From positions 1-64,000 of IMG/VR virus record IMGVR_UViG_3300047510_002627: a DNA stretch of 64,000 bases. One strand, 5' to 3'. The notes under the pieces are model-generated. The model did no database searches, was not told the DNA's origin, and worked only from the letters and a program-made list of their open reading frames with translations. Every line of letters starts with the position of its first letter. The stretch's first letter is position 1. The position numbers and the translations under genes are program-made. This DNA comes from a virus. Below are positions 49 through 30,756 of this stretch, piece after piece.

Positions 49-56
49 CCTCGGGA

Positions 57-114: not shown

Positions 115-142
115 GGAGTCAAAGGGATCTCACTGTTCTCTC

Positions 143-3412: not shown

Positions 3413-3424
3413 CCGATCCGCCCT

Positions 3425-3463
3425 CTGATGCAGTAGGATTCTCTCAGTTCACCACCTGAACCG
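3425..3463 (+). promoter_or_regulatory. Cassette leader, type A copy 3
   Basis: Same leader as at 1911 and 2711 with one A deleted and one C-to-T change. TAGGAT (3434-3439) ends 25 nt before the ATG at 3464. Confidence 0.6.
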
Positions 3464-7590: not shown

Positions 7591-7992
7591 ATGCCGCTGC
7601 AACGAATAAGTAAAAGTTTCAAAGATATTAGTTTGACTTTTAAGGCAAGTCCAATTAATAATGATCTTTTAACACTTAAAAATTCAGCGGCTATTGCACG
7701 TTCTGTAAGAAATCTTGTTTCGACATATCCTGGCGAAAGATTCTTCAATTTTGACCTTGGAACTGACGTTCAAAGAGTGACCTTTGAGCAATTTGACCTT
7801 TTAACGGCAAATGAAATAAAAAGTCAAATTGAAACTACATTAGAAATTTATGAACCAAGAATAAAACTTATAAATGTTGACGTTTCCAATGATTATGAAA
7901 ATTTAGAGTTTAATGTGACACTAAAATATGAAATTATTGGAATACAGGAGCAACCACAAGTTGTAACATTTGCACTTCAGCCAAATCGATAA
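7591..7992 (+). CDS. gp25: Baseplate wedge subunit gp25
   Basis: T4 gp25 homologue (T4 protein 132 aa, here 133). gp25 is the small lysozyme-like-fold wedge protein that forms the core bundle of each baseplate wedge and links inner baseplate to sheath. Visible are the N-terminal SFKDISLTFKA, the conserved GERFFNFDLGTDV (residues 49-61) and the C-terminal beta segment YEIIGIQEQPQ. It is directly followed by gp6 without a gap, the order found in T4-like cyanophages. Assignment is based on family-typical motifs and position. Confidence 0.9.
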   Translation: MPLQRISKSFKDISLTFKASPINNDLLTLKNSAAIARSVRNLVSTYPGERFFNFDLGTDVQRVTFEQFDLLTANEIKSQIETTLEIYEPRIKLINVDVSNDYENLEFNVTLKYEIIGIQEQPQVVTFALQPNR

Positions 7993-12800: not shown

Positions 12801-15800
12801 AGCAATTATTCATCGGACAAACTGGCGGAACTATTGTCAGAATTAATAATTTAATATTAAGTGTTGGTGGAGAAGGAGGAACTCAACTTGATATTGGAGG
12901 AACTAATGGGTTTGAAGCTAGAATTGGAAATGAAAATATTACCCTAGGAAACATTGGATCAGGATGTGTTGTATATCCAAATGTAATTGGAAAGTTAGAA
13001 AGAATTGATTTAATATATCAAGGATTTAACTATGTTGGAACACCTAAGATTTTTATAAGTGGTGGAAATGGTAATGGTGCCATTGCTGAACCAGTTATGG
13101 AATCATTTGAATATATTGCTCAGTTTGCGGCAAATTCTTTAAATTTAAATTTTGCATCTGATACAATAGGATTTACTACTTATCATAATTTTGAAAATTT
13201 TGAAGAAGTTGTTTATATAAACCCAGAAAATCAATTAATACAAGGATTGCAATCTAGAAGTAGATACGTTGTTAACGTAATAGATTCTTTTAGAGTTAAA
13301 TTATTTAAATCAAAGGAAGATGCAGTTTCTGGAATTAATACAATATCCATAACATCAACAGCACTTGGCATACATGGATTAAAGTCTGTAAAAAATAAAT
13401 CAAAGATAGGAAAAATTAATGTTATTAATTCTGGGTCTGGATACCAAAGTAAGAAAGTATCCACATTAGACTTAAACGTAAATATAGTAACAAATGTTAT
13501 AACAGTTACCGGTCATGGGTATAACAGTGGCGAAAAAATAATTTATTATACAAATGATACTCCTATTGGTGGAATAAATCAAAATACTCCATATTATGTG
13601 ACAAAAATTGATGATAATAATTTTAAATTATCTGAAGTAAACACTGGATCAGATAAACCAAATGATTTTTTCTATACTATAGGAGAATATGTAGACTTAA
13701 CAAGTGCAGGGTCTGGAAGACACTTCTTTGATTATGAACCAATATCTGTAAGAATAGACGGATTTATAGGTGTTTCAACTTCTGGTGTTCAAAATTTAAA
13801 TGCTGTTGTCCAACCAATCTTCAGAGGATCAATAGAAAATATATTTGTTGAAACTAGTGGGGATAATTATGGAACTTCTGACATTTTAAACTATTCAAGA
13901 CAACCAGAAATAACAGTAAGTAAGGGAAAAAATGCCTCATTATTACCAATTTTAAATGATAATGGATCAATTAAGGAAGTTTTAATTTTAAATCCTGGAA
14001 AAGATTATATTTCCACTCCTGATATAATTGTTAGAGGTGATGGAAATGGAGCAGTATTAACTCCAATATTAAAAAATAATTCTATTGTTGAAGTTAAAGT
14101 AATTTACGGTGGATCGGGATATACTTCAAAAAATACTATAATTGATATAGTTGATACTGGCGAAGGATTACGTGTATTCTCTTCAATAAAATCTTGGAAT
14201 GTTAACTTATTGAAGAGATATAGGGATACTGGAAGAGAAAGTGCTGATGGAGGAATATTTTATTCTGGATTGAGTGATAACTATGGTCTTCAATATACTC
14301 ATGTTTATTTGGCAGACGAACTCAGAAAAATTATTTACAAATCTGATGCAAATAAACAAACAATCACAGATTTTGAAATAGACAGAAGTGTAATCAAAGA
14401 ACACTCTCCAATAGTTGGATGGGCCTATGATGGTAATCCAATTTATGGTCCATATGGATATTCTAATGGAGTATCTGGAACAGTTAGGGCAATGAGGTCT
14501 AATTACGTCTTGAAAACAGGTATAGAAAGAAGTAATGGTCCATCATTTACCAAATATCAAAATGGTTTTTTTGTGGAGGACTATGAATATAATTCCACCA
14601 ATGGAGGAGATCTTGATGAATCGAATGGTAGATTTTGCCGTACCCCAGAATATCCAAATGGTGTATACGCATATTTCTGTACTGTAGATACCAATATTCC
14701 ATTAATTGATGGAAAAGGTTTTGAACCACAATTCCCATATGTTATTGGAAATGTATTTAAATCAAAACCTATAGAATTTAATTTTGATAAAAAATCTAAT
14801 CAAAATGAAATAGATATCAATAAAACAAACTGGTATAGAAACACACATCCATATTGCTTAAAGGATAGAGTTAGTTGTGATTATAAGTATTTACTTTCTC
14901 CAAATAGAATTAAAGATCCAATAAGTGAAGTAAAATATTCTACATTTGGTCAAATTGAGTTTGTGGATGTTGTAGTCAGTGGTGACAATTATCAAGTAGG
15001 AGATAAAATTAAATTCCAAAATGGTGATGTTATTGGACAAGATGCAACTGCAGAAGTTTCATTTATTTTAGGAAAAGAAGTTAGAGATATATCAATAGAA
15101 AGATCATCTTTTGATGGTGTAGAATTCATAAAAAATGATAACGGCACAGAATTAATAGGATTTACAGAAGAACCACATGGATATAGTACTGGAGATATAG
15201 TTTCAATAACAACTCCAATTGAAAAAATAGTATTTAAGGATATATACTTCTTCAATAATAATTTATTTGTAACCAAAAATATTCCTGTTAGTTCGACTAC
15301 AGGAATAGTAACTTATTTTGAAGTCTCTGGGGATTTATCTTATCCAACAATTAGAGAAAATGATATATACACATTACCTTCAAATGAACAAGTAAAAATA
15401 TTAAACATAGATGAAAATAATAAAACTATAAGAGTTCTTAGAGAATATAACAATGTAGTTTCATCTGGAATAATAACTTCAGGATACAGATTAGTGGAGG
15501 ATTCTAGAAAATTTAATTGTAATCTGGGAATTCAAACATACTATGACTTTAAATCAAATTACGACTACTATTTTAATGCCAAAGAATCTGTAGGCCTTGG
15601 AACTCAATTTGGACCAGGAATAACAAGTACTGTATATCCTGCTTACTCCACCTCTGGGGTTATTTCTCCAAGAGTAATTCCAACTCAAACCATATATTTA
15701 CCAAAACATGGATTTGTTACTAATGAAACTTTAGATTATTCTCCAGAAACTAGTTCTTTCATACGAGCAACAGTTAATGGTGGAGTAACTACATTTGATT

Positions 15801-18800
15801 TACCAGATAGAGTTAACGTTGTAAAAATAACCGATGATTTAATTGGAATTTCTACAGTAAAAGTTGGAATTGGTACTGATGGAGACGTGGGAATTTACAG
15901 AAATCTGGAAAATCCTTTAGATACCACAAATCCACTATTATCGTTTACATTTGCAGATGGAGCAGATCACAGATTTAAAACATTAAGGGATAATATATTA
16001 ACTGCAAAAGTATCTCAAAACATTGTAACAGTATCAACTTCTTCAACACATGGATTAACTTCTAATGATTTAATTGATATAAAAGTAGAACCAGAAAGTG
16101 AAAAAAATATAGTTATAGAGTATAATGACGAATCTAGATTATTGGTTGTTAATCCAAAACCATTTCTAGATGATGACGTTGATGTGGATGCAAATACATT
16201 TAATATCATTAATCATGGATATAAAACAGGAGATAAAGTAATTTATAAATCGGAAACTCCCCTGACTGGATTATCTGATAATCAAATTTACTATGTTGTC
16301 GCTATTAATAGAAATGAGTTTGCATTAGCAAGTTCATTTTATGAATCAAATAAGGAATTCCCAAGATTTATTAATATTAGTAATCCAACGGATGGAACTT
16401 TTTATTCAATAAATCCACCAATTACTGCCGTAGTTGGTCAAACAATATTCTTTGATTTATCAAGTGAAACATTGTCTTTCACACAAGGAAGTTCAACTTT
16501 AAGAATACCTTCTTTTGAATTTGATCTTTTCTTTGATTCCAATTTTAATCATAAATTTATATCTTCTGGAAAATCATCTATATTTGACGTTAAAAAAGTT
16601 GGTAAAATTGGTGTTGATGCAGATGCTTATGTGTCTATAAAAATTACAGATAAAACACCTAAAAATTTATATTATAAATTGACTCCTTTGGATATAAATG
16701 GTAATCCTCAAGATAAATTGTTGTCCTTTATCGATACTGAACAAAATAGTAATAATATTTTAAGTATTGTTCCAAGTATTTACGATGGTCAGTATAAGAT
16801 ATTTGATCCAATTGATAGAGATGTTACACAACCTCCATTTTTATATTCTGAATTTAAATATCAAATACCAAGAGAACCAGAAAGTGAATCTTATAATCTG
16901 AATAATTCAAATATATCATATAAAACTACATCAACTGATGCGTTTGGACCAATAGATAAAGTATCGATTAAAAATAAAGGAAGATATTTTTACAGATTAC
17001 CTTCAAAGACATTAATAAGTACTAATATTGGTACTGGCGCTATTGTCAGTGCAAATAGTACTAGTATTGGAGAAATTAAAACTGTAAATATAAAAGATAT
17101 TGGATTTGATTATCCTTCAGATTTGAGTATTAGACCAATTGCAAATCTTCCAACAATTTACAAAGTTGAACCTCTATATTCATTTGAAAGAATTACAATA
17201 ATTTCAAACGGAGTCAATTATTTACAAGCTCCAAATATAGTAGTAATTGACAATAAAACATCTTCAGTAATTGATGATGTATTTTTACAATATCAACTTG
17301 GAGATAACTTTGTTTCTATAATAAGAAATACAAAAAATCTTTCAAATATTGTACCAAGACTTGTTCCAGTTAACAATACAAACGGAATACCATTATTATT
17401 AAATATTTCAAATCCAATAGTTTTAGATATTTCAAATAATGCAGACTTAAATGAAGTTATTGCTGCAACTGATAATGCAGAATTGACAGAAGAATCTGAA
17501 GAATCCAGTTTTAATCTTCCAGATAGTTTGCCATTTACTAATTTAGTAACCATTCAATTATTCTTAGGAACTGAATATAGTAGTATTTTTGATTTTCCAT
17601 TTGAACTTGGAGATCTTGTCTTTATTGAAGATGTGGTTACTATAGAAGAGACAAATGGGGGGACAAGTAAAGGATTTAACTCAGAAAATTATAATTATTC
17701 TTTATTCAGAGTAGTGAGAAGGGATCCAAATATTGGAGGATCATCTGCATCTATAACATTAGATTTTGCTGGATATATTCCAACAGAACAATTAATTGAG
17801 GCTCCTGGATCAGATGCATTTACTGTTGATAAAATTATTTCTCAATCTGCTAGAGTAGTACCAGTAAAGTATTTTCCACAGTATCAAGTTGTACTTCAAA
17901 AGAATGATTTTATTATAGATGAGGAATTGGTTACTCTTAATGGAGAATCGGTAGGTACTGTAGAGCAGTGGGATAATGCTAATGATTACATAAAAATTGC
18001 GGAGAGGATTATTTTTGGAGAAGGTGATCAAATCATTGGGCAGACATCAAAAACTAAAGCAAATCTTTTAAAGAAAATTGAATTTGATGCTGGATATACA
18101 ACTGGAAGCACTTCGGTAGTCAATAAGGGGTGGCAGTCGGATACTGGTAAATTAAATTCTGATTTACAAAGAACCAATGATAGTGATTTTTATCAATACT
18201 TCTCATATGCGTTAAGATCAAAGATCCCCATCGATAAATGGGATGATGTTGTTGGATCTTTAAATCACACAGCAGGATTTAAAAGATTTTCTCAATTGCA
18301 AGTTGAATCAGAACCTGGGTTATATAGTGGCATATCAACATCTCAAGATGCTGGTGTTTCTTTTGGAATTGGGGATATAATTTCAGAAGTTAGTTTGAAC
18401 TGTTATTATGATTTTGACTTAGTTAGAGAAACTACATTTGCAAATAATCCACTTAGATCTAATGAATTAATTTTTGGAAGTGCTATTCTTCAAGATTATA
18501 TTGAATCAGTTGGAAATAGAGTTTTAAATATTGATGACATTAGTAAAAATTTCAATGCTTTACCAAGAGAAACTTCATTCTCAGTTGTTGCTAGATCCGA
18601 TAGTACTGAAATAAGAACTAGAAAATTCTTTTTCTACACTCAAGATAGAAGATTTATTAATGATAAGCAGATGAATATTCTTCTTTCTACTCATGATAAT
18701 TTTACACCATATTTGAGTAACTATGGTAGATTAGAAACTAGATACGATCTTGCATATTTCGATTCAAGAATTCTTAGTGGTCAACAACAATTACTATTTT

Positions 18801-20800
18801 ATCCTAATTTTGATGAAACTAATAATTACTTAATTGATTTTATTGTTCTTGAAATGACTGATGATCCAGAAGATATTGAAAATATTAATTTTGGTGATGT
18901 GGCCAGAACTTATAATCAAGTCGGTGTATTGACAAGTGGTTCACCTGCTGGGGTTGGAAATACAGTAGTTGGTATTGCATCTACTTATTTTGCAACTAAA
19001 TTAATTGTTCAAACTGGAGCGGCATCTACAACTTACTACCAAGTAAACGAAATAACAATTCTTAAAGATGATTACGGAAAGGCAAAATTCATAGAGTACG
19101 GGGAAATTACTACTTCTGGATCACAAAATGAGTCTGTTGTTGGGGTAGTTTCTTATAGTGCAAATATTTTAAATGATGGATCAATTGATTTAATTGCAAT
19201 TCCATACGAAGATCTGACAGATGATTATAATGTTAAAACAATCACAGTTTCCATTGGTGGCACAGAACAAACTGATGTTGGAAGTCTTGGATATGAAACC
19301 GGATCAGTAAGATCATTTAAGGCATCTGGCATAGGAACAGAAATTCCTGCAGCAATACAAATTACTGCATATGATAGTCAATATAAGTGTGCATATATGA
19401 TTCCATATGTTACTGGAATTCAAACTGGATCTAAAATTCCATTTAGTTTTGGTAATAGAAGTCATGGAATTTCTGATTGGTACGCATTTGATGATGCAAC
19501 AATTACATATTCAACAATATACCCAGAAACTCAAATTATTGGTATTAACACTCTTGGATATAATCAGGCGATTGTTACAACAGGTTTAGATCCACAAAGG
19601 GGTACAGTTGGATTTAGTAGTGGACTTAGATATTATGCAACAAAACCAGTTAATTTTTTCTCAGAGACTGATAATTGGAAAACCGCTCCAGTTTCTTATG
19701 CTGGAACTACATTTGGTACATATGTAACGGACAGAGGAGATCCATCTGGAATATCTACATACTATGTTTATGCACCATTTGAAGATGCTGTAATTAACCA
19801 ATATGATAATGATGTCAATGGTATTCTTGGAATAGCATCAGATACGTTAACTCTTCCAAAATATACAGCAGGAATTTTGACTTCTGCAGTTGCCGATGGT
19901 TGGGTTTACTTTGAATCTACTAAACCAGTAATCATTACAACACAAGGACCTGGATCATTTGATTCTTCTGTATTAGCACCTTCCGTTACTGGGGTTGGTA
20001 CAACAAATTATAAGTATTATGCGTATTCTTCCGCAATCCCAAGTACTGAGTATCGTGCTACGGCTTATGGAACATTGGAACCAGATATAAGATTAGGAAT
20101 TACTACCGCAGGTGCTTTTAGCAATGAACCAATTATCGCATTACAAAGATCTGATGGTGATGGTTCTGACGATGTTCAGGGCATTCTTTCAGATTACTTA
20201 GCAGACACTTATTCTTGGGGAAATACATTATCTGATTATCAATTAGTTGCTCCTTTTGGAGACACTACCATTACAGTTTCTTATTGGGATGGAACTCAGT
20301 GGCAAATAGGAGAAACACATGTACTTATTGGTGGGGATCTGGAAAGTCCTCAGCAAGTATCTAGAGATGGTGATAATGGATTTGGTGTATGGGGAACTAA
20401 TGTAGGTGGATCAGCAGCAAATTTGGCAGCAGGTTTAGGTGACAGTGGTTCTGATCCAAATCTTTGGAAGTTTGAGGGGAATAATCCGTTTGCCTTGTTT
20501 ATCAATGATACTACTAATAGGGAAGAAACTATGCTTGGTTTCTCTAGTTCCACCACTAGTAGACCACTAAATAAAGAATATAGAGTTAGCGAAATACAAG
20601 TTATTAATGATCAAGTAAACTCTTATATAACTGAGTTTGGGACACTTGTAATACCAGCTCCATCTAATGCTTTTGGTGAGGCGGGAATCGGAACCTTTAG
20701 AACTAGACAAGTTGGTTCTAATACTATATTAGAATTCGTTCCAACACCTTTGACAGAAGTTGAAATACGTGGTTACCTAATAAGTATCGGTCGTTTCTAA
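9890..20800 (+). CDS. gp7: Giant gp7-type baseplate wedge protein with YHYH domain, 3636 aa
   Basis: Occupies the gp7 slot between gp6 and gp8. Residues about 304-334 (KDFYSSKGTNTSFDILFNAL, then YGENVKVIKPRDYL) closely follow the motif I recall from T4 gp7 (DFYSTKGIEASYKFLF...). T4 gp7 is 1032 aa, so about 2600 residues are extra. A YHYH-type domain lies at about 1504-1650: GWAYDGNPIYGPYGY and PQFPYVIG. Many short Gly-rich beta repeats of the form GxGYxxxPxI occur (e.g. codons near 12583, 13016, 13427, 13990, 14107, 17098, 17206). No transmembrane segment. It is probably the outer wedge scaffold, with surface-exposed additions that may contact host surface. The gp7 assignment rests on motif plus position; the remainder is inferred to be virion structural. 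Confidence 0.7.
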   Translation: MEKNNVKISSILEYQVPEFIRVEYPLLIEFLREYYRSTEITFGANDIVSNIQNYIKIENLNNIVDTFYLFNESKEISEIVKNSTTILNNESLIRIKTSTPHNFIDGDTVDIQPESSIIDSIEIDRSLSFNGVRFTISVINENEFYCIGSGEGISNKNFVGGSFGVVTKSNIDSDSDEIIIYSTVDSKKSLPISYGLIQIDEEVILFKDIEDLTPITVDGQEYTSYKLLNCTRGFSGVTSIDSDDQLTFSSTVAEEHFNRAEVKNLSSIFLKEFLKKIKYLYLPGFEDKELNPELNQEIFIKQSKDFYSSKGTNTSFDILFNALYGENVKVIKPRDYLIEPSDADFRVVKDLVVEALEGNPEELNNKTLFQDDFGFINPARGTVSLVERIERDDRTYYIVSIDDGYERDINFRGTLFSEFSIHPKTQTIQFLERGSTHIDVDSTIGFPNSGELVVKTIDPVTKTVLTYEIEYQTKSSTQFLKCKTKGSIVDNINFPIYTNSEVFSNAFAYGFSNDESLIRVRITGVLSEFEQQEKTYLYESGNRIRVKSLGLDSRNRRDNDWVFNIPVSYAIKFAFLKDSFNNLYEVEFFDNHNFHLRDSFYFEEDSELFATVVDVTTENRLILQLNISLGVPAAGNRIPRLENKTITKILTKCSIQQYPELNFYNVSVTNTYVDTKDNSTYVTSGSLPAYSNNIDVRDGSLVGKFNFGIISPDGIIKQNKLFTDGEIDYSYITVFLDSGVGDQAVKHGFYTGDSVILRSLNPNVSPLPDGIYYVRDFRTEGDEYGIKLSSSRSNILNEKYTTLTKPDDILAEFDTVGEYSLQYFDFSIVDFNSENNFLPQLLESQNLIRKISDPVLDSQRVKTKEGSNGIFLNGVEVLNYKSTDNVFYGPIEKVISTAPGRGYDVIHPPEISVTDIGGAKLSYSSSNGTAVLYNGSPLKFGVSSNSNPVTYDGVGGEPIIINDKTLILGNKQLFIGQTGGTIVRINNLILSVGGEGGTQLDIGGTNGFEARIGNENITLGNIGSGCVVYPNVIGKLERIDLIYQGFNYVGTPKIFISGGNGNGAIAEPVMESFEYIAQFAANSLNLNFASDTIGFTTYHNFENFEEVVYINPENQLIQGLQSRSRYVVNVIDSFRVKLFKSKEDAVSGINTISITSTALGIHGLKSVKNKSKIGKINVINSGSGYQSKKVSTLDLNVNIVTNVITVTGHGYNSGEKIIYYTNDTPIGGINQNTPYYVTKIDDNNFKLSEVNTGSDKPNDFFYTIGEYVDLTSAGSGRHFFDYEPISVRIDGFIGVSTSGVQNLNAVVQPIFRGSIENIFVETSGDNYGTSDILNYSRQPEITVSKGKNASLLPILNDNGSIKEVLILNPGKDYISTPDIIVRGDGNGAVLTPILKNNSIVEVKVIYGGSGYTSKNTIIDIVDTGEGLRVFSSIKSWNVNLLKRYRDTGRESADGGIFYSGLSDNYGLQYTHVYLADELRKIIYKSDANKQTITDFEIDRSVIKEHSPIVGWAYDGNPIYGPYGYSNGVSGTVRAMRSNYVLKTGIERSNGPSFTKYQNGFFVEDYEYNSTNGGDLDESNGRFCRTPEYPNGVYAYFCTVDTNIPLIDGKGFEPQFPYVIGNVFKSKPIEFNFDKKSNQNEIDINKTNWYRNTHPYCLKDRVSCDYKYLLSPNRIKDPISEVKYSTFGQIEFVDVVVSGDNYQVGDKIKFQNGDVIGQDATAEVSFILGKEVRDISIERSSFDGVEFIKNDNGTELIGFTEEPHGYSTGDIVSITTPIEKIVFKDIYFFNNNLFVTKNIPVSSTTGIVTYFEVSGDLSYPTIRENDIYTLPSNEQVKILNIDENNKTIRVLREYNNVVSSGIITSGYRLVEDSRKFNCNLGIQTYYDFKSNYDYYFNAKESVGLGTQFGPGITSTVYPAYSTSGVISPRVIPTQTIYLPKHGFVTNETLDYSPETSSFIRATVNGGVTTFDLPDRVNVVKITDDLIGISTVKVGIGTDGDVGIYRNLENPLDTTNPLLSFTFADGADHRFKTLRDNILTAKVSQNIVTVSTSSTHGLTSNDLIDIKVEPESEKNIVIEYNDESRLLVVNPKPFLDDDVDVDANTFNIINHGYKTGDKVIYKSETPLTGLSDNQIYYVVAINRNEFALASSFYESNKEFPRFINISNPTDGTFYSINPPITAVVGQTIFFDLSSETLSFTQGSSTLRIPSFEFDLFFDSNFNHKFISSGKSSIFDVKKVGKIGVDADAYVSIKITDKTPKNLYYKLTPLDINGNPQDKLLSFIDTEQNSNNILSIVPSIYDGQYKIFDPIDRDVTQPPFLYSEFKYQIPREPESESYNLNNSNISYKTTSTDAFGPIDKVSIKNKGRYFYRLPSKTLISTNIGTGAIVSANSTSIGEIKTVNIKDIGFDYPSDLSIRPIANLPTIYKVEPLYSFERITIISNGVNYLQAPNIVVIDNKTSSVIDDVFLQYQLGDNFVSIIRNTKNLSNIVPRLVPVNNTNGIPLLLNISNPIVLDISNNADLNEVIAATDNAELTEESEESSFNLPDSLPFTNLVTIQLFLGTEYSSIFDFPFELGDLVFIEDVVTIEETNGGTSKGFNSENYNYSLFRVVRRDPNIGGSSASITLDFAGYIPTEQLIEAPGSDAFTVDKIISQSARVVPVKYFPQYQVVLQKNDFIIDEELVTLNGESVGTVEQWDNANDYIKIAERIIFGEGDQIIGQTSKTKANLLKKIEFDAGYTTGSTSVVNKGWQSDTGKLNSDLQRTNDSDFYQYFSYALRSKIPIDKWDDVVGSLNHTAGFKRFSQLQVESEPGLYSGISTSQDAGVSFGIGDIISEVSLNCYYDFDLVRETTFANNPLRSNELIFGSAILQDYIESVGNRVLNIDDISKNFNALPRETSFSVVARSDSTEIRTRKFFFYTQDRRFINDKQMNILLSTHDNFTPYLSNYGRLETRYDLAYFDSRILSGQQQLLFYPNFDETNNYLIDFIVLEMTDDPEDIENINFGDVARTYNQVGVLTSGSPAGVGNTVVGIASTYFATKLIVQTGAASTTYYQVNEITILKDDYGKAKFIEYGEITTSGSQNESVVGVVSYSANILNDGSIDLIAIPYEDLTDDYNVKTITVSIGGTEQTDVGSLGYETGSVRSFKASGIGTEIPAAIQITAYDSQYKCAYMIPYVTGIQTGSKIPFSFGNRSHGISDWYAFDDATITYSTIYPETQIIGINTLGYNQAIVTTGLDPQRGTVGFSSGLRYYATKPVNFFSETDNWKTAPVSYAGTTFGTYVTDRGDPSGISTYYVYAPFEDAVINQYDNDVNGILGIASDTLTLPKYTAGILTSAVADGWVYFESTKPVIITTQGPGSFDSSVLAPSVTGVGTTNYKYYAYSSAIPSTEYRATAYGTLEPDIRLGITTAGAFSNEPIIALQRSDGDGSDDVQGILSDYLADTYSWGNTLSDYQLVAPFGDTTITVSYWDGTQWQIGETHVLIGGDLESPQQVSRDGDNGFGVWGTNVGGSAANLAAGLGDSGSDPNLWKFEGNNPFALFINDTTNREETMLGFSSSTTSRPLNKEYRVSEIQVINDQVNSYITEFGTLVIPAPSNAFGEAGIGTFRTRQVGSNTILEFVPTPLTEVEIRGYLISIGRF

Positions 20801-20819: not shown

Positions 20820-23800
20820 ATGACAATTATCAATGCCGGAACTGGTTTTTATATAGGAAGATTATTTGATGTTCAACTTAGTGCCGAACTGAGGCATAAA
20901 GGTGATCCCATATTTGAAAAACTTTTTGATGGATCTAGCCAGGTTAGTGTTGATTTAAGAAATAATAGATTTTTTGTCCCAAATCATTTTTTTAAAACTG
21001 GGGAAAAACTAGAATATTTTTTCCCCAATTATGAAAATGCGACCGAAGGAGAATCAAACGCTGTTGGAATTGCTACAACTAGTATAGTAAATGTTGGAAT
21101 TACTACCAGACTTCCAAGAAACGTATATGCAGTTGTATTAAACGATCAGTATATACAAGTATCAGAAACCAAGTCAGATGCTTTAAGAAGAATTCCAAAA
21201 GTTCTTGATATTGTTTCAGTTGGAATTGGAGCATCTCATAAATTTGTTGGGGAAAAACAAAACACAAGATCATTAATAACAATTGATAATGTAATACAAA
21301 CCCCATCAATAGATACCGAAATAAGAACAACTTTAAGGGAAGAATTATCTGGGGCCAGCGATTTTGTAGAGGTTGTAGGTATTACTTCATTTTTTACTGG
21401 AGATTTGATTAGAATTGATAATGAAATAATGAGAATAGAACTCATTGGTTCTGGCATAGGAAATACCAATAGTTTCATTGTAAGAAGACCAATTTTAGGA
21501 ACTGGATTGGCAAATCATGCTCAAGGAGCAGATGTAGTAAAGCAATCCGGAGCGTATCAAATTGTAGATAATATAATTTATTTTCCAGTACCTCCATTTG
21601 ATAAAGCACCAACGACTGATCTCACTAGAACTGATCCAGAAGAAAGAGATTATGTTGGACTTGAAACATTCTCAACTTTTAATGGAAGAGTATTTTTAAG
21701 ATCTGGATTTGAAGATACAAATATAGGTCCATATGATAAAAATTTCTTATTAGATGATATTTCAAATCAATTTTTAGGAATATCAACTCAAGCAGTATTA
21801 AAAAATCAAGGAAATAATGTAACTGGATTTTCAACTGGAAACGCTCTTATTTTAATCAATAACGTATTCCAAACTCCAGATTTTATTGATTATGGACTTG
21901 GTGAAAGTGCCGGAGTTACTACAATTAGATTTACGGGAGAAAAAAGTCCCAACCCAGAGGATGTTAATACAGCTTCCATACCTAGAGGTGGTATAATAGT
22001 TTCAGTTGGATCAAATGAAGGATATGGATATCAACCATTAGTTGCCGCCGGTGGAACAGCAACTGTATCAGCTGCTGGAACAATATCAAATATATCAATA
22101 GGATACAGTGGATCTGGATATAGATCTCCTAAGGAATTAATATTAACAACAAGAATAAATTACCCAACAAACAATCCATCTGCAGTATTTTTCCTGGAAG
22201 ATAATGATGGATTATTTGAAAAACTTAGATATTTTAAATCACCAGGATCTAATGCAAAAGTAGTTTTATCTGTAGAAAACAGTGTTGGTATAAACCAAGA
22301 AACTTTAGGTGAATATACAGAAATAACTTCTGTAGGAAGTACTTCTGTTACTATTAATAATGGATCTGGTCTTGATGCATGGGAAGAAGTTAGTGAATTT
22401 AGTAGTTATGAATTTTTTGCTGATACTACAGCGACTCAACCATCCGGAATTTCTACTAATGTAATTACTGTTTTTGATACTCTTGGAATTAGTACAGCTC
22501 CAGGAAATCCAAATTATTATTTAACTATAACAAATGCAGCAAAAAATATACTAATTACAAAAGTAAATGAAATTAATAATCAATTTACTTTAAATGAATT
22601 GACAACGAACTCTTTTGTAGATAATTCTGTGGTCACTGTCAATACATTCAGGCAAGGAATAACTTCTACATCAATTGGAAATAATGTTGTAATAAAGATT
22701 ACAGATCCGAATGTTGGATTTGCTAACATCTATGTCGATACTTTAAAAGCATATACTGCAACTATTGCAGATTATGATCCAAAAACCGGACTAACAACTA
22801 TAACAGCACCTGGATTAAATGTTTTACAGGGTGATTTTCTTGATCTAAGAAACTTTAAATATGTGTGCGAGAGTGGTGGTTCTGTTAGTGGGGAAGGTGA
22901 ATCAACAAATAGAAGATTTTCTATTAATCGTATTATTATAGATCAATCCATCAATAAAGAGTATAGTGTTATTGATGCAACATATAATCCAGTAAGTGGA
23001 ATATCAACTTTAAATATTGGTATTCATACATTTGGAACTATCGGATCAAATCGTTTTTACATAGAACCAGAATCACTTGGATTTAGTTGCAGTTTGGATG
23101 GAAATGCAACAACTTCATACTATCCTGGCCCAAATGATTTAAACTATAAAAAAAATTATGAAATTATAGACACAACAGCAACAACTGTAACTGTAAATGT
23201 TGGTAACGCAGGCAATAACACATCTGCACATACATTTGAAAGAGTTAATAATTCATCTTTGGGATCTTTATCTCAAGTAACTAATGCAACTTATAACGCA
23301 TCTACTGGAATATCTACTATATCATTTACTAATCCTCATGGGTTAAGTGCAGGAATTGCATATTCAGTAACTAATGCTACTTACAACCCAACTACTGGAG
23401 TTGCAGTAATTTCTGTTCCAGATACAACTGGATTACAAAATGGAAGTAAAATTCTAATACAATCAGAATCTCTTGGATTTACTTGTACTTTGGATGGCAA
23501 TACAAGTGTCACATATTATCCAAGATTAACAGATCCTGCAAATGACAATTTACTCACAGTGTCAAATGTAACTGGAAATTCATTCCAAGTTAATGTTGGA
23601 ACCTCAGTCGATACTTCAGCACATACTTTTGTTGGCGTAAATACTGAAACTCCCAAACCAATTAAATTTGTAAGCGGAGATTATGTATTTTTGGAAGAAG
23701 AAGGATTGACATTTACATGTACTTTAGATGGAAATACAACACCATCTTCATATCCAAGATCAACAGATTACGCATACAATAAACTTATAGAAGTTTTAGA

Positions 23801-26800
23801 TGTCCCAAGTGCTAACCAAATCACCGTATACGTTGGGTATGGTCAACCAGGACAGGTCTATAGTCATACGTTCGTAAGTGCTACCGAAAATGCAGTAAAA
23901 TTCTCTACAGGTCAATCTAGATACACCTCAGGCATAGCAACTGTCACTAATGTGGGTAATCTTGCTACAGAATTGACACCAAATTCGTTAGTGTTAATTA
24001 GAAATACTGGCACTGAGATAGATAATCGTATTTTTACAGTGTTGAATACACCAGTAACTATTGGTTCTACTACAAATGCATTTTCTATAGATTTAAATGA
24101 AAAGGATACACCGGCACCAGTTTCTACGTTAATATATCCAGGGGCGGATTTTGTTCTTGCAACAGTTACATTCCCTTCAGGAAGATTTGGTTTTGAATTT
24201 GAAGTTTTAGAAAAACTTGATGATGATACTTTTATATTAAATACTGGAAAAACAATACGTCCTCACACTTATCTTGGGGGAGGAGAAGTTAGAAATGTAA
24301 CTCAAGGGGTTAAACCCATATTCATTGGATTCTCCACTATAAGTAATGGACATCTTGAGGATCCAATAATAACAAATACAGGAATTGGGTTTAGTCAATA
24401 TAATTTATTTAAATCTTTAAATGCCAGAAGTGATGTCTTGGTAGGATCTAATATCGTACAAATTTCAGACACTGCGGGAATAAACACATTTACAGATTTT
24501 GTTAGATTCCCAACCAGAGACAAGAATAAATTATTTGATATTGTTGGTATTGGTTCATTCCGAGTTTTAATTAGTGAACCCATAGCAGTAAGTAATATAC
24601 CACAAAATACAATTGTAGAAATTTTACGATTTGATAGTTTTAGTTTAAATGTTGATGATCCATTATCCTACAATAATTTACCTTTGATTTACAGTAATGA
24701 ATCTCCTTCGGGAATTGGATCTTATGCTGTTGGAAATTTAATAATTGGCAATGATGGAAAAATAGAACAATTTGAATTAACAAGTTCGGGATATTCTTAC
24801 GGACAAACTGAAATACTGACTGTAGAAGTCGGAGGCGTAACAGGAATACCAACTTTTGCAAATTTCCAAGTAACTGGTATAACTTCATCTGTAGGAGTAT
24901 TTACGGGATCATTAACATCCTTAAATGATAGATTTGGAGCAAGTTTATCAGTAAATTCAGACGGAAGTAGAATTCTTATTGGAGGATCGCAGGATAATAT
25001 CGTTGGATCTGCAACAAGTTCTGGATTAGTTTATGCATTTGATAGAGTTGGAAGTGCTTTTAATCAAGTTGGAATTATTACTGGATTATATTCTTCTGAC
25101 AATGGCGATAACTTTGGACATTCTATTGCCATAAGTGGAGATGGATCTAGAATTGTAATCGGTGCTCCAAATGATGAAGTTCCAAATGCAGGAGGACAGG
25201 TTTATTTGTATGATAGACAAGATGTTCCTTCAATTGGATTTACTACAGTTGGAATTTTAACGTCACCGTATGCAGATGGATTAGTACCCACAGGAGAATC
25301 TTTTGGATATTCGGTGGATATGAGTAGAGATGGTAACGTTATAGTAGTCGGTGCCTTTAGAGAAGAAGATGCTTTACCAGAAAATAGTGGATTAGCATTT
25401 GTTTATGAAAGAGATGATGGACCACCAATTTCATTTGATCTCATCAGTGTTTTATCCGGTTCATTGAGTGTAAGCACTAGCGATAATTTTGGAAATTCAG
25501 TTTCTATAAGTCCAGATGGTTCTTATATAGCAATCGGTGCATTTAGAGACGAAGATGCACCAGATCCTAATGCTAATTTTGGACTTACTTACATATTTGA
25601 AAAGTCTGGAGCCAGTGTAAATCAAGTTGGGATACTTACATCTCCCAAATTAACATCAATTAAATCTGCAAATGATAGATTTGGATATAATGTTGATATT
25701 AGTGAAAATGGAACTATAGTTGCTGTAGCAGCAATTGATGATCAATCCGTTGTGGGAGGAAATAGAACAGGATTAGTTTATATATTTGAAAGAATTAATG
25801 GTAATAATTTTTATTTGATACAAGTTTTGAAAGGAGAATATTCAAATGAAACCGGAGATAGTTTTGGAAGTTCACTTTCCTTAAGTGATGATGGTAAAGT
25901 TATTGCAATAGGTGCTGCTCTTGATGAATTTCCCGGTAGTGGATCATCTTCTGGTGTTACTTACTTATATGAAAGAAGAACATTTAATTACTTTGGTAAT
26001 GATTATGTAAGCGTTGGCATTCAAACAGGTACTTTTGCAAATGATATAGATGACAATTATGGATATGCGGTTGCTTTATCCGGAAGTGGAAATAGGTTAA
26101 TAGTTGGTTCTCAAAATGATGCTTTCAATCAAGTTGGAATTGGAACATCTGGTGCTGTTTACTCTTATGATATAACTATTGGAAATACATTTGAAGAGTT
26201 TCAAATTTTAGTAGATAGAACATTTACAGATAGTTTTGCAGGATTAACTTTTGGAGATTTGGTGGTATTTGATGATATTAGTAGGTTATTTAACAGTTCT
26301 AGAGTAGAATTTCCAATATTGCTAGGCGGGATTAGAACCACATTGAGATCAAGACCCGGTTCTTCATTAGAATTAGAATATAATTTATTAGTTTTTATTA
26401 ACGACATATATCAAGTTCCAAACGAGTCTTACATATTCAATGGTGGAAGTATATTAACATTCTTAGAACCTCCAAAGGAAGGTGACAAATGTGTAATTGT
26501 ATTTTACTTTGGAACAACAGAAGTTGATACCAAACTTGTTGATATCTTAGAAACAATTAAAATAGGTGATAATGTAACTGTCAATAGCAGTGATTTTAGT
26601 TTACAGCAAAATCCAAGAACAGTAGTTGATATAACTGCTACAGATATATTAAATACTAATACTTATGTTTCCCCTGGAGTTACTGATGATGAAAACTTAC
26701 AAAGACCCATTAGATGGTGTAAGCAATTAGTAGATAAAGTTATTGATGGTAATGTTGTTGGAAAATCTAGAAAACCATATGAACCTGAAATTTATCCACA

Positions 26801-29114
26801 AGCTACATTAATTAGATCAGTTGGAATTGGATCGACACAAAATGATATTTTCTTAGACAATGTAAAAACTTTCTTTGATAGTGATGATGAATATGAAAAC
26901 ATTGGTGTAAATAAGCGTCCTCAAAATGATGTAATAATCATAGAAGATAGAGTTGCAATAGGTGCGAGTGCTTCTGTAACTATAGGGAATGATCTAAGAA
27001 TATCTTCAATAAGTATCGATTATCCAGGATTTAATTATATTACAACTCCAGATGTTTCAATTTCAGCACCAAACTTCACTGGCATAGGGACAACATCAAA
27101 TGAAAGAGCACAAGCATCTGCAGTACTTGAAGATGGGAAAATTAGCAACATAACACTAGATAATGTTGGTTATGGATATACAACAACAGGAAATCCAATA
27201 AAAGTATTCATAAGTGACCCAATTCCAAAGGTTGAAAGAATTGATGACGTTCTTTATGAAGGGGACTTTGGTGTTATTACCGGAATAGGTACTACATCTA
27301 TTGCATCTGATCCAATATCTCAAGTTGGATTTACAACTGGAATTTACTCTATTGATAGTTTTGATCTTTTTGGAAATGCAGTAGCAGTTAATCAAAATGG
27401 TACAAGTTTCATTGTTGGTGCTAGAAGTGATGAATTTATTGGATCTGCTGGAACTGGACTTGCATATGTATTTGATTATAATCCAAATACAGAAGTAATA
27501 ACTGGCATTGCAACTTTAAGTCCATCTACAACACCGGGAGATACTACTGACCTATATGGGTTTGATGTTGCAATGAGTGGTGATGGTAGTATAGTAGCGG
27601 TTACTGCTCCATCTGATGAACTTAGTGTAAATAATTCTGGATTATTATATGTCTATGAAAGATCAGGAAATGCATTTAATGAATTAAACGTATTTGAAGC
27701 TAAAATTGGAGTGGGATTTACAATAACAAATCCAAATATAGGTGTTTTATCCGATTCTATTGACATAAGTGTAGATGGGCAAATAATTGCTGCTGGAGCG
27801 GCATCTGATGATGAAGGTTATGTTTACATATATGAAAGAGAGCAAGTTGGTGTTGGAACTTACATACAGACTCAAAGATTTACAGGATCTCAATCAGTAA
27901 TTGGGGCATCTGCATTTGGATATTCAGTTGCTTTAAATTATAATGGATCTGTGTTATGCGTTTCTGCATATGGAGAAGATAGAGTATATGTATTCTCTAG
28001 AAATTTTGATGGAAGTTATTCTGAAAGTGCCACTATAGAAGAACCAGAAAATAGCAGTGGATTTGGATTCTCTGTTGACATATCGTCTGAAGGAAATACA
28101 ATAGGTGTTGTAGAAGGATTGACAGGAAGTTCTCAAAAGGCATATATTTATGATTTTAATGATGTAACTGCAAAATGGGATTTAAGTAATGTCTTAACTT
28201 TAAATAATACATCTAATGTAAATTCAATTAGTATATCAGATAATGGAAGAACCATTGTTTTTGGATCAGCAAAAGATGAACCAGTTAATTCAATAGATTC
28301 TGGAAGTGTTTATGTATATAAGAGAACTGGAAGAAGTGATAATTTGGTTGGTATTCTGACAGGATCTCAATCATTAACCTCTGGATCAAACTTCGGACAA
28401 TCTTCTGCCATTAGTGATGATGGTAAAGTTATTATTATCGGTGCTCCGGGCAGTGAAGTTTCTGGATCTGGATCTGAATCCGGAATTACATACGTATTTA
28501 AGAATCCAACTCCAAATGCGTTTGAAAATAATATTGTTTTTGAATTATACATTGAAAATGATTCATATTTGAGAAACTCTGAAATTGGTGTTCCAAAAGT
28601 AATATCTACTCTCCAGGAAGGATATTACTTTAGAGTAAATAATTCAAATATAGGAAATGTCGGATACGGAATAACTGCATTGAATATATACAATGGAAAA
28701 TCTCATTTCATCGGAACACATTTCTTAGATGGTGTATATCAAGTATCTAATGTTAGCGTTGCTAGAACAGAGGTTTATAGTTTGAATGTTGATCAAGTTG
28801 GAACTGCCAGAACTGATGTTTTAAGAGTAATTGTTCCAGTAGAAAGTTGGAATGGAATAGATATTCCAAGTGGTGGTGTAGCTGGAAACGTGAATGGCGA
28901 TCCCAATGTTGGTCTTGGGTACACATACAATGGATATTTTGGAGATTATTCTTGGGGGAGAATATCAAATTATAAGAGAGGGGTAAGAAAAACATTTGCT
29001 CTTCATAGTGATGGAGATTCTACATTAAGTTTAAATAATCCAGGAATAACAACAACTGCAAAATTAGTAAGAGTAAATCCACTAAAATCTGAAGGATATA
29101 CTCCTAATATATAA
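20820..29114 (+). CDS. Giant baseplate-region structural protein with two FG-GAP propellers, 2764 aa
   Basis: No T4 counterpart is recognised. Two blocks of seven FG-GAP-like repeats (about residues 1370-1790 and 2180-2570) have the core DxFGxSVxISxDGxxIxIGA, each block fitting a seven-bladed integrin-alpha-like beta propeller. Upstream, three copies of a beta module (about 751-1020) contain LDGNxxxxYPRxTD and SAHTF or SHTF. GxGY repeats occur near 22106, 24785, 27022 and 27165. AAGGAT at 20811-20816 is the ribosome site. It lies inside the wedge operon between gp7 and gp8, so it is probably a virion adhesin or fibre-like baseplate appendage. The function of propellers in glycan or protein binding is family knowledge; its use here is inference. 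Confidence 0.75.
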   Translation: MTIINAGTGFYIGRLFDVQLSAELRHKGDPIFEKLFDGSSQVSVDLRNNRFFVPNHFFKTGEKLEYFFPNYENATEGESNAVGIATTSIVNVGITTRLPRNVYAVVLNDQYIQVSETKSDALRRIPKVLDIVSVGIGASHKFVGEKQNTRSLITIDNVIQTPSIDTEIRTTLREELSGASDFVEVVGITSFFTGDLIRIDNEIMRIELIGSGIGNTNSFIVRRPILGTGLANHAQGADVVKQSGAYQIVDNIIYFPVPPFDKAPTTDLTRTDPEERDYVGLETFSTFNGRVFLRSGFEDTNIGPYDKNFLLDDISNQFLGISTQAVLKNQGNNVTGFSTGNALILINNVFQTPDFIDYGLGESAGVTTIRFTGEKSPNPEDVNTASIPRGGIIVSVGSNEGYGYQPLVAAGGTATVSAAGTISNISIGYSGSGYRSPKELILTTRINYPTNNPSAVFFLEDNDGLFEKLRYFKSPGSNAKVVLSVENSVGINQETLGEYTEITSVGSTSVTINNGSGLDAWEEVSEFSSYEFFADTTATQPSGISTNVITVFDTLGISTAPGNPNYYLTITNAAKNILITKVNEINNQFTLNELTTNSFVDNSVVTVNTFRQGITSTSIGNNVVIKITDPNVGFANIYVDTLKAYTATIADYDPKTGLTTITAPGLNVLQGDFLDLRNFKYVCESGGSVSGEGESTNRRFSINRIIIDQSINKEYSVIDATYNPVSGISTLNIGIHTFGTIGSNRFYIEPESLGFSCSLDGNATTSYYPGPNDLNYKKNYEIIDTTATTVTVNVGNAGNNTSAHTFERVNNSSLGSLSQVTNATYNASTGISTISFTNPHGLSAGIAYSVTNATYNPTTGVAVISVPDTTGLQNGSKILIQSESLGFTCTLDGNTSVTYYPRLTDPANDNLLTVSNVTGNSFQVNVGTSVDTSAHTFVGVNTETPKPIKFVSGDYVFLEEEGLTFTCTLDGNTTPSSYPRSTDYAYNKLIEVLDVPSANQITVYVGYGQPGQVYSHTFVSATENAVKFSTGQSRYTSGIATVTNVGNLATELTPNSLVLIRNTGTEIDNRIFTVLNTPVTIGSTTNAFSIDLNEKDTPAPVSTLIYPGADFVLATVTFPSGRFGFEFEVLEKLDDDTFILNTGKTIRPHTYLGGGEVRNVTQGVKPIFIGFSTISNGHLEDPIITNTGIGFSQYNLFKSLNARSDVLVGSNIVQISDTAGINTFTDFVRFPTRDKNKLFDIVGIGSFRVLISEPIAVSNIPQNTIVEILRFDSFSLNVDDPLSYNNLPLIYSNESPSGIGSYAVGNLIIGNDGKIEQFELTSSGYSYGQTEILTVEVGGVTGIPTFANFQVTGITSSVGVFTGSLTSLNDRFGASLSVNSDGSRILIGGSQDNIVGSATSSGLVYAFDRVGSAFNQVGIITGLYSSDNGDNFGHSIAISGDGSRIVIGAPNDEVPNAGGQVYLYDRQDVPSIGFTTVGILTSPYADGLVPTGESFGYSVDMSRDGNVIVVGAFREEDALPENSGLAFVYERDDGPPISFDLISVLSGSLSVSTSDNFGNSVSISPDGSYIAIGAFRDEDAPDPNANFGLTYIFEKSGASVNQVGILTSPKLTSIKSANDRFGYNVDISENGTIVAVAAIDDQSVVGGNRTGLVYIFERINGNNFYLIQVLKGEYSNETGDSFGSSLSLSDDGKVIAIGAALDEFPGSGSSSGVTYLYERRTFNYFGNDYVSVGIQTGTFANDIDDNYGYAVALSGSGNRLIVGSQNDAFNQVGIGTSGAVYSYDITIGNTFEEFQILVDRTFTDSFAGLTFGDLVVFDDISRLFNSSRVEFPILLGGIRTTLRSRPGSSLELEYNLLVFINDIYQVPNESYIFNGGSILTFLEPPKEGDKCVIVFYFGTTEVDTKLVDILETIKIGDNVTVNSSDFSLQQNPRTVVDITATDILNTNTYVSPGVTDDENLQRPIRWCKQLVDKVIDGNVVGKSRKPYEPEIYPQATLIRSVGIGSTQNDIFLDNVKTFFDSDDEYENIGVNKRPQNDVIIIEDRVAIGASASVTIGNDLRISSISIDYPGFNYITTPDVSISAPNFTGIGTTSNERAQASAVLEDGKISNITLDNVGYGYTTTGNPIKVFISDPIPKVERIDDVLYEGDFGVITGIGTTSIASDPISQVGFTTGIYSIDSFDLFGNAVAVNQNGTSFIVGARSDEFIGSAGTGLAYVFDYNPNTEVITGIATLSPSTTPGDTTDLYGFDVAMSGDGSIVAVTAPSDELSVNNSGLLYVYERSGNAFNELNVFEAKIGVGFTITNPNIGVLSDSIDISVDGQIIAAGAASDDEGYVYIYEREQVGVGTYIQTQRFTGSQSVIGASAFGYSVALNYNGSVLCVSAYGEDRVYVFSRNFDGSYSESATIEEPENSSGFGFSVDISSEGNTIGVVEGLTGSSQKAYIYDFNDVTAKWDLSNVLTLNNTSNVNSISISDNGRTIVFGSAKDEPVNSIDSGSVYVYKRTGRSDNLVGILTGSQSLTSGSNFGQSSAISDDGKVIIIGAPGSEVSGSGSESGITYVFKNPTPNAFENNIVFELYIENDSYLRNSEIGVPKVISTLQEGYYFRVNNSNIGNVGYGITALNIYNGKSHFIGTHFLDGVYQVSNVSVARTEVYSLNVDQVGTARTDVLRVIVPVESWNGIDIPSGGVAGNVNGDPNVGLGYTYNGYFGDYSWGRISNYKRGVRKTFALHSDGDSTLSLNNPGITTTAKLVRVNPLKSEGYTPNI
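23074..23880 (+). repeat. Three-copy beta module (LDGN...YPR...HTF)
   Basis: Within the 2764-aa protein: copies start near 23074 (FSCSLDGNATTSYYPGPND), 23464 (FTCTLDGNTSVTYYPRLTD) and 23706 (FTCTLDGNTTPSSYPRSTD). Each is about 55 residues and ends in an NVG or YVG strand and HTF. I associate this module with large cyanophage structural proteins. Confidence 0.75.
24925..26190 (+). repeat. FG-GAP propeller 1, seven repeats
   Basis: Seven repeats, about 180-195 nt each, with cores DRFGASLSV, DNFGHSIAI, ESFGYSVDM, DNFGNSVSI, DRFGYNVDI, DSFGSSLSL and DNYGYAVAL, starting near 24925, 25108, 25297, 25483, 25675, 25858 and 26052. Each is followed by a DG or NG turn and an IxIGA/VVG strand, then a YxY/YxF strand. 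Confidence 0.85.
27355..28510 (+). repeat. FG-GAP propeller 2, seven repeats
   Basis: Seven further repeats with cores DLFGNAVAV, DLYGFDVAM, SDSIDIS (degenerate), SAFGYSVAL, SGFGFSVDI, NVNSISIS (degenerate) and SNFGQSSAI, starting near 27363, 27549, 27748, 27909, 28060, 28213 and 28386. Repeats 3 and 6 have lost FG but keep the strand pattern. Confidence 0.8.
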
Positions 29115-29157: not shown

Positions 29158-30756
29158 ATGGCTGCAATCATTACTGATCAATTAAGAATTCTGAATGCAA
29201 ATAATTTTTTGGAGAAGGTAACTGATCCATCTAATTCTTATTATGCATTTGTAGGATTACCAAATCCATTTGATTACAGTTCCACTTGGGATGAAAACCC
29301 CCCGTCCCCAAAAGATAGTTTTCAGCAAGAAAATATTATCTGGGATAATATGATTGCTATGAAAAAAATTCGTAATGAAGATGTTAGAAATGTTATAAGG
29401 AGAATAGATTGGGTATCTGGAATTATTTTTGATAGGTATAGAAATAATGTTGACAGAGATAACGTTTCCAATCAAACATCATCAACGAGTTTATATTCAT
29501 CTAATTACTATGTTGTGAATAGTGATTATAGAGTTTATATTTGTTTAGAAAATGGAGAAGATCCAGAAAATCCAAAAGGAAAACCTTCTCTGGATGAACC
29601 AAGATTTACTGATTTAGAGCCAAGATCAGCTGGTAATAGTGGAGATGGATATATTTGGAAATATCTTTACACAATTTCAGCAGGAGATATTATAAAATTT
29701 GATTCCACCCAGTACGTACCAGTTCCAAGAAATTGGAGTGATAACGTAGACGTGGCAACCGTTAGAGAAAATGCTGTGGAAGGTGGGCAGTTAAAAACGG
29801 TAGTCATAAAAGACCGAGGTATTGATGTAGGGCAACCAAATACAGTTTATAGTAATGTGCCTATAAGTGGTGATGGAAGTGGGGCAAAAGTTACTATTGT
29901 GACTAATAATGATAGCAAAGTTGAAAGCGTTACTGTTTCTAATGGCGGATCTGGATATACATTTGGAACTGTTGACATTGATGCTATTTCTTTAAATTAT
30001 ACAAGTATACCAAAATTTGAAGTTGTCATTCCTCCAAAAGGAGGACATGGTGCTGATATTTATCGTGAATTGGGTGCAACAAGTATTTTAATTTATTCCA
30101 GAATTGAAAATGATGATCAAGATCCCGATTTTATTGTTGGTAATGAAATATCTCAAATTGGAATAGTAGCAAACCCTTTAGCATTTAATTCAAATGAAAT
30201 TTTAACCAAAGATAAAGCAAGTGCTCTTGGTGCTATAAAATTAGATCCAAATGCAAAGAATGATGCGGTCTACAATGCAGATACATACATAACTCAAACT
30301 GTAGGTGCAGGTAAAACCGCTGTTGCTAGAGTTGTGTCTTATGATAGAAACACTGGAATTTTAAAATATTGGAAAGATAGAACTCAAACTGGTTTTAATT
30401 TTAATGGAAATTCTGCTGATCCAATTTTTTCTTACATAAATTATGAGTTTACTTCATTGCCAGAAGAAGGTGGAAATACAAACATTAGGAATTATACTTC
30501 AGTAAGTGCTATTAATGCTAATGACACTTCTGGATCTGTAGTTGGAATAGATACAAATTTTGGTACTACATTAGAACCAGGTATAACTACGTCAATAAAT
30601 AGTAGAACATATTACTTAGGGCAACCATTTGTCAGCGGGTTATCAAATCCAGAAGTTAAAGCATATTCTGGGGATTTGATTTACATTGATAATAGACCAC
30701 CAATTACCAGGTCTAAAAACCAAAAAGAAGATATTAAAGTTATCATTCAGTTCTAA
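29158..30756 (+). CDS. gp8: Baseplate wedge subunit gp8
   Basis: T4 gp8 homologue. gp8 is the wedge protein that dimerises on gp7 and holds the gp10/gp53 contacts. Visible are the N-terminal YYAFVGLPNPF, the MIAMKKIRNEDVRNVIRRIDW segment (about 66-86; equivalent to the T4 PRRDW region), YRVYICLENG and DGYIWKYLYTISAGD (about 163-177), matching GDGYVWEYLF of T4 gp8 as I recall it. At 532 aa it is longer than T4 gp8 (334). A C-terminal extension carries one GxGY repeat (SNGGSGYTFGTVDI). It has its own late promoter, so it can be made apart from the giant genes upstream. Confidence 0.85.
   Translation: MAAIITDQLRILNANNFLEKVTDPSNSYYAFVGLPNPFDYSSTWDENPPSPKDSFQQENIIWDNMIAMKKIRNEDVRNVIRRIDWVSGIIFDRYRNNVDRDNVSNQTSSTSLYSSNYYVVNSDYRVYICLENGEDPENPKGKPSLDEPRFTDLEPRSAGNSGDGYIWKYLYTISAGDIIKFDSTQYVPVPRNWSDNVDVATVRENAVEGGQLKTVVIKDRGIDVGQPNTVYSNVPISGDGSGAKVTIVTNNDSKVESVTVSNGGSGYTFGTVDIDAISLNYTSIPKFEVVIPPKGGHGADIYRELGATSILIYSRIENDDQDPDFIVGNEISQIGIVANPLAFNSNEILTKDKASALGAIKLDPNAKNDAVYNADTYITQTVGAGKTAVARVVSYDRNTGILKYWKDRTQTGFNFNGNSADPIFSYINYEFTSLPEEGGNTNIRNYTSVSAINANDTSGSVVGIDTNFGTTLEPGITTSINSRTYYLGQPFVSGLSNPEVKAYSGDLIYIDNRPPITRSKNQKEDIKVIIQF

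Follow-up and report, generated by a model that had tools for sequence, protein, structure and literature searches.

Two closed seven-bladed propellers built of FG-GAP repeats are predicted within one open frame of the window (the whole stretch of 64,000 nucleotides of viral DNA analysed here), and alignments place both in loops of the baseplate wedge protein gp7, where they probably contact the host. The frame (20820–29114, + strand) encodes 2764 amino acids and holds both domains. Propeller 1 occupies residues 1346–1789 (about 444 aa; 24855–26186, + strand) and propeller 2 occupies residues 2161–2568 (about 408 aa; 27300–28523, + strand). Each has seven FG-GAP blades, marked by seven profile matches and an AlphaFold2 (AF2) model.

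Repeat content and predicted fold

Fourteen FG-GAP repeats were identified in this frame, arranged in two blocks of seven. The Pfam family FG-GAP_2 (PF14312) matched the whole 2764-aa protein in 10 stretches (E 1.7e-44; 150.2 bits, cut-off 23). Over the whole 120,751-base virus record, the family was found at 10 places, 8 of them above the cut-off and all in the frame 20820–29114. An earlier repeat model made from the window's own repeats also gives 14 and is circular. A repeat HMM was built from 802 bacterial repeats, which were gathered in a first pass with a phage-derived model; the final model contains no window or phage rows. This HMM gave 14 matches at i-E < 0.01, seven at residues 1367–1792 and seven at residues 2179–2566. 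The count of seven per block, proposed in the earlier note from the letters, was thus borne out by a profile, and no other count appeared. With the same HMM, no match was observed in the other window ORFs of at least 90 aa, and 0 of 300 shuffled copies had any match. The repeat cores start at residues 1372, 1432, 1495, 1557, 1621, 1682 and 1747 in block 1, and at residues 2184, 2246, 2310, 2366, 2415, 2466 and 2525 in block 2. Repeats 3 (LSDSIDIS) and 6 (NVNSISIS) of block 2 lack the FG core, as had been noticed before, and the two lowest-scoring units with the bacterial-repeat HMM also belong to block 2 (repeat 5, 6.7 bits; repeat 3, 9.4 bits). DNA repeats in the propeller region merely reflect the protein repeats. 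The domains are wider than the ranges read earlier, and the two inserts are separated by a conserved domain that is not a propeller and spans about 370 residues.

AF2 models were generated for residues 1270–2180 (23 sequences) and 1785–2764 (21 sequences), with mean pLDDT values of 63 and 61, respectively. Ten-residue blocks in the propeller parts mostly reached 60–96, with a few lower, and about half of the gp7 blocks outside the propellers were under 50. The inter-propeller domain, covered by both models, showed mixed to low confidence. Propeller 2 comprises 28 predicted strands and propeller 1 comprises 28 plus one extra leading strand. In both models the strand order reads D-(ABCD)x6-ABC, and blade 7 is completed by one strand from the N-terminal end, the labels being our own assignment made without coordinate inspection. 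In prediction, 28 strands each, a velcro order and 7+7 repeats are thus the features of seven-bladed beta-propellers.

In Foldseek searches, the best PDB rows for both propellers were integrin alpha heads. Comparison with integrin alpha by VIA-align gave Z 34.9 (rmsd 3.2, 378 aligned, model residues 82–522) for propeller 1 and Z 36.8 (rmsd 3.6, 357 aligned, model residues 380–859) for propeller 2, for which most other rows end near 780–787. Identity to the best integrin alpha rows was 18% and 16%, respectively. The WD40 protein Ciao1 reached Z 34.3 and 34.5 against propellers 1 and 2, so the fold match identifies a seven-bladed propeller rather than an integrin in particular, and it is the FG-GAP family match that tells which kind of propeller is present. 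Among the sequence-profile relatives of propeller 1 with a solved structure (E up to 0.01), eight of nine rows were integrin alpha (E 0.0013–0.0089) and the ninth was a dynein-tail chain. The integrin alpha propeller carries calcium-binding loops of the DxDxDGxxD type between strands A and B. The calcium motif D.[DN].[DN]G..[DE] has no match in the 2764 residues, and with these loops absent the window propellers fall outside the integrin alpha propeller class. The 28-strand models and the integrin alpha heads found at these Z values support both blocks as closed seven-bladed propellers; the fold suspected earlier was obtained for both, and no other fold was predicted.

gp7 identity and insertion sites

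Against PHROGs, ORF 20820–29114 matched phrog_2885, a baseplate wedge subunit (E 1.5e-213), and it also matches the annotated gp7 of S-SM2, P-SSM2, B23 and P-TIM68. It represents the C-terminal half of a split gp7, whose N-terminal part (9890–20800, + strand, 3636 aa) matches the same family with E 0. Upstream are gp25 (7591–7992, + strand, 133 aa; PF04965, E 1.2e-14) and gp6 (7993–9888, + strand, 631 aa; phrog_219, E 2.5e-189), and the next gene downstream is gp8 (29158–30756, + strand, 532 aa; phrog_438, E 8.7e-158), all baseplate wedge genes. The resulting order gp25-gp6-gp7-gp8 also appears in the annotation of S-SM2, P-SSM2 (from gp6 onward), ACG-2014f and B23, and in that of P-TIM68, where an additional gene separates gp7 from gp8. 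The gp7 of B23 is likewise split in two ORFs. Sequence kinship with annotated gp7 and this gene order, as in Kyanoviridae-type gp7, support the propeller-bearing protein as the putative gp7 baseplate wedge initiator of a Kyanoviridae-like, T4-like phage, a name reached via cyanophage annotation only. The "baseplate-region protein" of the earlier note is thereby sharpened to gp7.

Several other features were observed in these genes and elsewhere in the record. A YHYH domain (PF14240, E 1.3e-24) is located at residues 1503–1603 of the N-terminal gp7 half (9890–20800). Relatives of the tail sheath gp18 (46433–49141, 902 aa) align in two pieces, in spans of about 2.2 kb, covering 84–87% of the window gp18, which suggests an extra internal segment of roughly 120–170 residues. 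An FkbM-type methyltransferase gene (51667–52392) and a UDP-glucose/GDP-mannose dehydrogenase family gene (63005–63820) lie among T4-like structural and replication genes. No match to the photosynthetic reaction-centre family PF00124 occurred in the 120,751-base record, which is incomplete.

The one-piece gp7 of L008 (3998 aa) was used as the reference for ordinary gp7 and compared with the window ORF by BLASTP. The N-terminal part of the split protein aligns to L008 residues 1–2821, and the propeller-bearing ORF is collinear over four segments (window 11–457 with L008 2920–3368, 1276–1351 with 3399–3478, 1790–2163 with 3472–3839, and 2562–2760 with 3833–3997). No counterpart of either propeller was found in L008 by BLASTP. 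At the propeller 1 junction, ordinary gp7 passes from ..TGIPTDPSV straight to TFENFQ.., whereas 444 residues stand between them in the window. At the propeller 2 junction, it passes approximately from ..GLGTTDS to QEQLIFDLF.., where the window has 408 residues. On these alignments, both propellers are clean domain insertions in gp7 loops. Between them lies a conserved gp7 domain (residues 1790–2160; 26187–27299, + strand), about 41% identical to one-piece gp7, and propeller 2 is followed by the gp7 C-terminal domain (residues 2569–2764; 28524–29111, + strand). Part of the inter-propeller domain also has an HMM match in the gp14 neck/head completion proteins of S-SM2 (L198, 25437–26882) and B23 (L201, 26069–27475); judged by this match, that part is a shared virion module.

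A third lineage-specific insert, which is not a propeller, was observed at residues 458–1275 (about 818 residues; 22191–24644, + strand). It contains repeated SLGFxCTLDGN..YP modules and stands where ordinary gp7 (L008) has about 30 residues. It matches phrog_5342 (tail fiber) and phrog_701 (virion protein), and at 62% identity between the window and L001 it is about as variable as the propellers.

Distribution and origin of the gp7 propellers

The gp7 bearing propeller 1 is common to eight further contigs (L001–L006, L038 and L039), among which L003 and L006 are identical over the propeller-bearing gp7 protein. The split of gp7 is seen in L001–L006 and L039; the L038 contig begins within the ORF. 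In the tree of the inter-propeller domain, the eight different rows of this lineage form one clade (100/100). With the window included, propeller 1 is present in 9/9 members and propeller 2 in 6/9. In L002, L038 and L039 the C-terminal domain is present and the propeller 2 site is empty, so propeller 2 is not essential to the lineage. In the propeller 1 tree, L002 joins L003/L004 (99), which favours a loss of propeller 2 in L002 over a late gain, although the backbone tree does not fix the position of L002. None of the 18 ordinary gp7 loci (L007–L024) contained propellers.

A scan with the inter-propeller domain returned at least 600 stretches from at least 581 relatives, and the best 80 of at least 581 were kept. 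FG-GAP repeats in gp7 were found in 3 of these 80 best relatives (L204, L205 and L038), L204 and L205 lying on the contigs of L001 and L006. The distance across the propeller 1 site, measurable in 79 of the 80 loci, was 3–5 residues in 76 and 439–447 in 3. Some of the 80 (L215, L242, L265, L248) have short 3' parts, and in these the later sites are only partly covered. Since the 80 surveyed loci are those nearest to the window, the survey will tend to miss unrelated carriers. In the "phages" collection, 101 records matched the region around both propellers, mostly via the domain between them. Seven records of this collection matched propeller 1, none of them annotated as gp7, and none matched propeller 2. 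PHROGs searched with each propeller alone gave 0 families.

Scans with the propellers revealed two further gp7 lineages with propellers, L116/L117 and L102/L103. L116 (3181 aa, open at 5') carries seven blades between ..YNTKVGNGVIS and ..IGIGTTFLDNIYEI, and L103 (2974 aa, open at 5') carries seven blades further on, ahead of ..YGNFSWGRF. Aligned to the window's C-terminal domain, these propellers mark two more insertion points; four gp7 loops in all would then be used for propellers, as judged from one alignment of a divergent domain. As read from the sequences, both have the same register, with a D strand first and the C strand of blade 7 last. L116 and L103 group with the propeller-free P-SSM2 and ACG-2014f and lie outside the window clade (100/100). 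Propellers at further sites in two other gp7 lineages thus indicate repeated propeller uptake by the gp7 C-terminal region. In a quick propeller tree, the L116 propeller falls in a 17-row clade with the window's (99) and the L103 propeller falls elsewhere; if this tree is right, at least two separate propeller stocks were involved.

Mean blade identity within a propeller was 71% in L116 and 70% in L041, and 36% and 30% in window propellers 1 and 2, which would fit a recent amplification of one blade in L116 and L041 and an older age of the window's propellers. In the register comparison, propeller 1 of the window and of L003 gave 0.53 at offset 0 and 0.35–0.38 at the six others, and propellers 1 and 2 within the window gave 0.33 against 0.32–0.37. 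A late origin of either propeller by wholesale copying of the other in its differentiated form was rejected, as the two have no common register. The propeller 1 and propeller 2 groups are sisters in the quick propeller tree (SH-aLRT 89), so one propeller may have been copied while its blades were still alike. Candidate cellular donors comprised 80 kept genome loci from many phyla, 25–33% identical in the best segment; none is named as the donor, and the lineage's gp7 propellers group with virus rows in the tree.

gp7 is usually regarded as a baseplate scaffold. We tentatively consider, at somewhat less than even odds, that its C-terminal region is a mounting plate on which T4-like phages planted seven-bladed propellers repeatedly, in four separate loops and from at least two unrelated stocks, each propeller having reached seven blades through copies of a single one. 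If this were true, the wedge protein itself, besides the fibres, would carry interchangeable host-recognition heads. The repeated insertion of integrin-like propellers at several gp7 loops points to an exposed platform, and the gp7 propellers offer exact domain borders and natural empty-site controls (L002).

Divergence, possible function and comparison with known systems

Between the window and L001, identity was 64% and 56% in the propellers and 77% in the inter-propeller gp7 domain, with dN/dS values of 0.31 and 0.36 in the propellers and 0.145 in that domain. For L003/L004, dN/dS was 0.14 and 0.21 in the propellers and 0.07 in the inter-propeller domain, and the C-terminal domain (0.20) was as fast as propeller 2. 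For L038/L039, propeller 1 (0.03) was below the core (0.08). Relative to the adjoining gp7 domain, the propellers thus change at about double the rate in two of the three pairs and more slowly in L038/L039, all dN/dS values being rough, with synonymous sites near saturation. Loop identity on the upper face, which we take to correspond to that of integrins, was 0.50 vs 0.56 on the lower face in propeller 1 (p 0.145) and 0.36 vs 0.48 in propeller 2 (p 0.055), a non-significant trend in each.

The leading reading, to which we assign a probability of roughly 55%, is that the propellers bind the host surface. Sequence and prediction show that whole seven-bladed FG-GAP propellers have been inserted into loops of the C-terminal gp7 region. 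In the models, one strand at the N-terminal end pairs with the last three strands, closing blade 7 in each propeller, so both propeller ends exit side by side and fit the receiving loop. Six gp7 copies, if as in T4, would give a rim of twelve propellers round the baseplate, and these probably bind a host-envelope component, either a glycan or a surface protein, and aid baseplate engagement with the cell. Passages on T4 in PMC3004832 describe gp7 as monomeric, with six copies located at the periphery of the baseplate, and its domain A as swinging out by about 45 degrees on triggering. A kin propeller was observed in L041, a phage protein that matches a tail-fibre family over its first 58 residues, and L052 has a propeller in a long ORF, three genes on from a gp6-like gene. 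Passages of PMC4901313 present propellers as phage host-recognition parts in the phi11 RBP and in phiKZ gp131C, the latter at the baseplate periphery and there called unconfirmed. The "receptor-binding device" of the earlier note is plausible, as it fits the gp7 periphery in T4, the tail-fibre kin propeller and the mostly faster propeller evolution. Counting against host binding are the conserved propeller 1 of L038/L039, the fast C-terminal domain in L003/L004, the non-significant loop test, the absence of the integrin calcium motif and the dispensability of propeller 2 in the lineage.

The main rival to host-surface binding is the docking of other virion parts: the propellers would bind further proteins of the virion, such as the bases of tail fibres or adjacent wedges, and make the baseplate larger or stiffer with no host contact. 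Propellers are common protein-protein platforms, which speaks for docking, as do the retention of propeller 1 in all nine lineage contigs and its slow evolution in L038/L039. In T4, according to passages of PMC3004832, gp9, the protein that attaches the long tail fibres, is also held at its N-terminal domain by a domain of gp7. However, an optional propeller 2 and rates above that of the gp7 core in two of the three pairs would suit a changing partner more than an internal contact, and we regard docking as rather unlikely. Another possibility, which we consider quite improbable, is that recombination with fibre genes spread the insertions, which were tolerated because the two ends of each come together and which would have hardly any function or none. 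Clean insertion and absence, the optional propeller 2 and the degenerate blades 3 and 6 of block 2 are consistent with this, but purifying selection on the propellers (dN/dS 0.03–0.36), frames kept over deep divergence and the repeated acquisition of exactly seven blades argue against it. An enzymatic role in degrading envelope polysaccharide, named as an unconfirmed alternative for the baseplate propeller phiKZ gp131C in passages of PMC4901313, is highly improbable here, given that the top fold matches are integrin heads and WD40 proteins and that no Pfam enzyme family was found for the 2764-aa protein.

Viral FG-GAP propellers as such are not new. Many are present by fold in BFVD, and one propeller scan gave 78 IMG/VR loci, among them both stand-alone proteins of seven repeats and arrays of 14 and 21. 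Single ORFs of L060, L062, L068 and L070 contain 14, 21, 27 and 34 FG-GAP repeats, largely grouped in sevens, and some contigs of this set have them in runs of neighbouring genes. Passages of a 2024 paper (PMC11467894) give the impression of viral FG-GAP domains as almost unknown, which the dozens of virus contigs with such domains temper. In the literature on FG-GAP domains, phage propellers and cyanophage or T4 baseplates, covered mostly at the level of titles, no mention of propellers inside gp7 was found. The word "propeller" is absent from the excerpted text of PMC10966104, where gp7 is a neck protein different from the baseplate gp7.

In comparison with known systems, the gp7 of Kyanoviridae (S-SM2, P-SSM2, B23, P-TIM68 and ACG-2014f) has a homologous backbone and shares the position between gp6 and gp8 with the window gp7. 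FG-GAP repeats are present in none of these five isolates' gp7, nor in that of the single-cell virus AG-345-F15, whereas the window gp7 has 14. The gp7 of P-TIM68 (L202) has a longer C-terminal region, with 348 residues after the core; by reading, a Gly-rich extra segment of about 100 residues lies in the loop region that carries the propeller of L116. The FG-GAP_2 (PF14312) proteins of bacteria and viruses, with many phage and giant-virus examples, contain the same repeat, often seven times, but often as stand-alone proteins or arrays, in contrast to the two inserts inside a conserved baseplate protein observed here. The integrin alpha head is of the seven-bladed FG-GAP type like the window propellers, which differ in lacking DxDxDGxxD calcium loops. 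Phage-baseplate propellers for which host recognition has been proposed or supported are phiKZ gp131C and the phi11 RBP, compared here by description only, from passages of PMC4901313: the phi11 propeller is five-bladed and part of a trimeric fibre, and gp131C has a seven-bladed C-terminal domain, whereas the window gp7 carries two inserted, predicted seven-bladed propellers.
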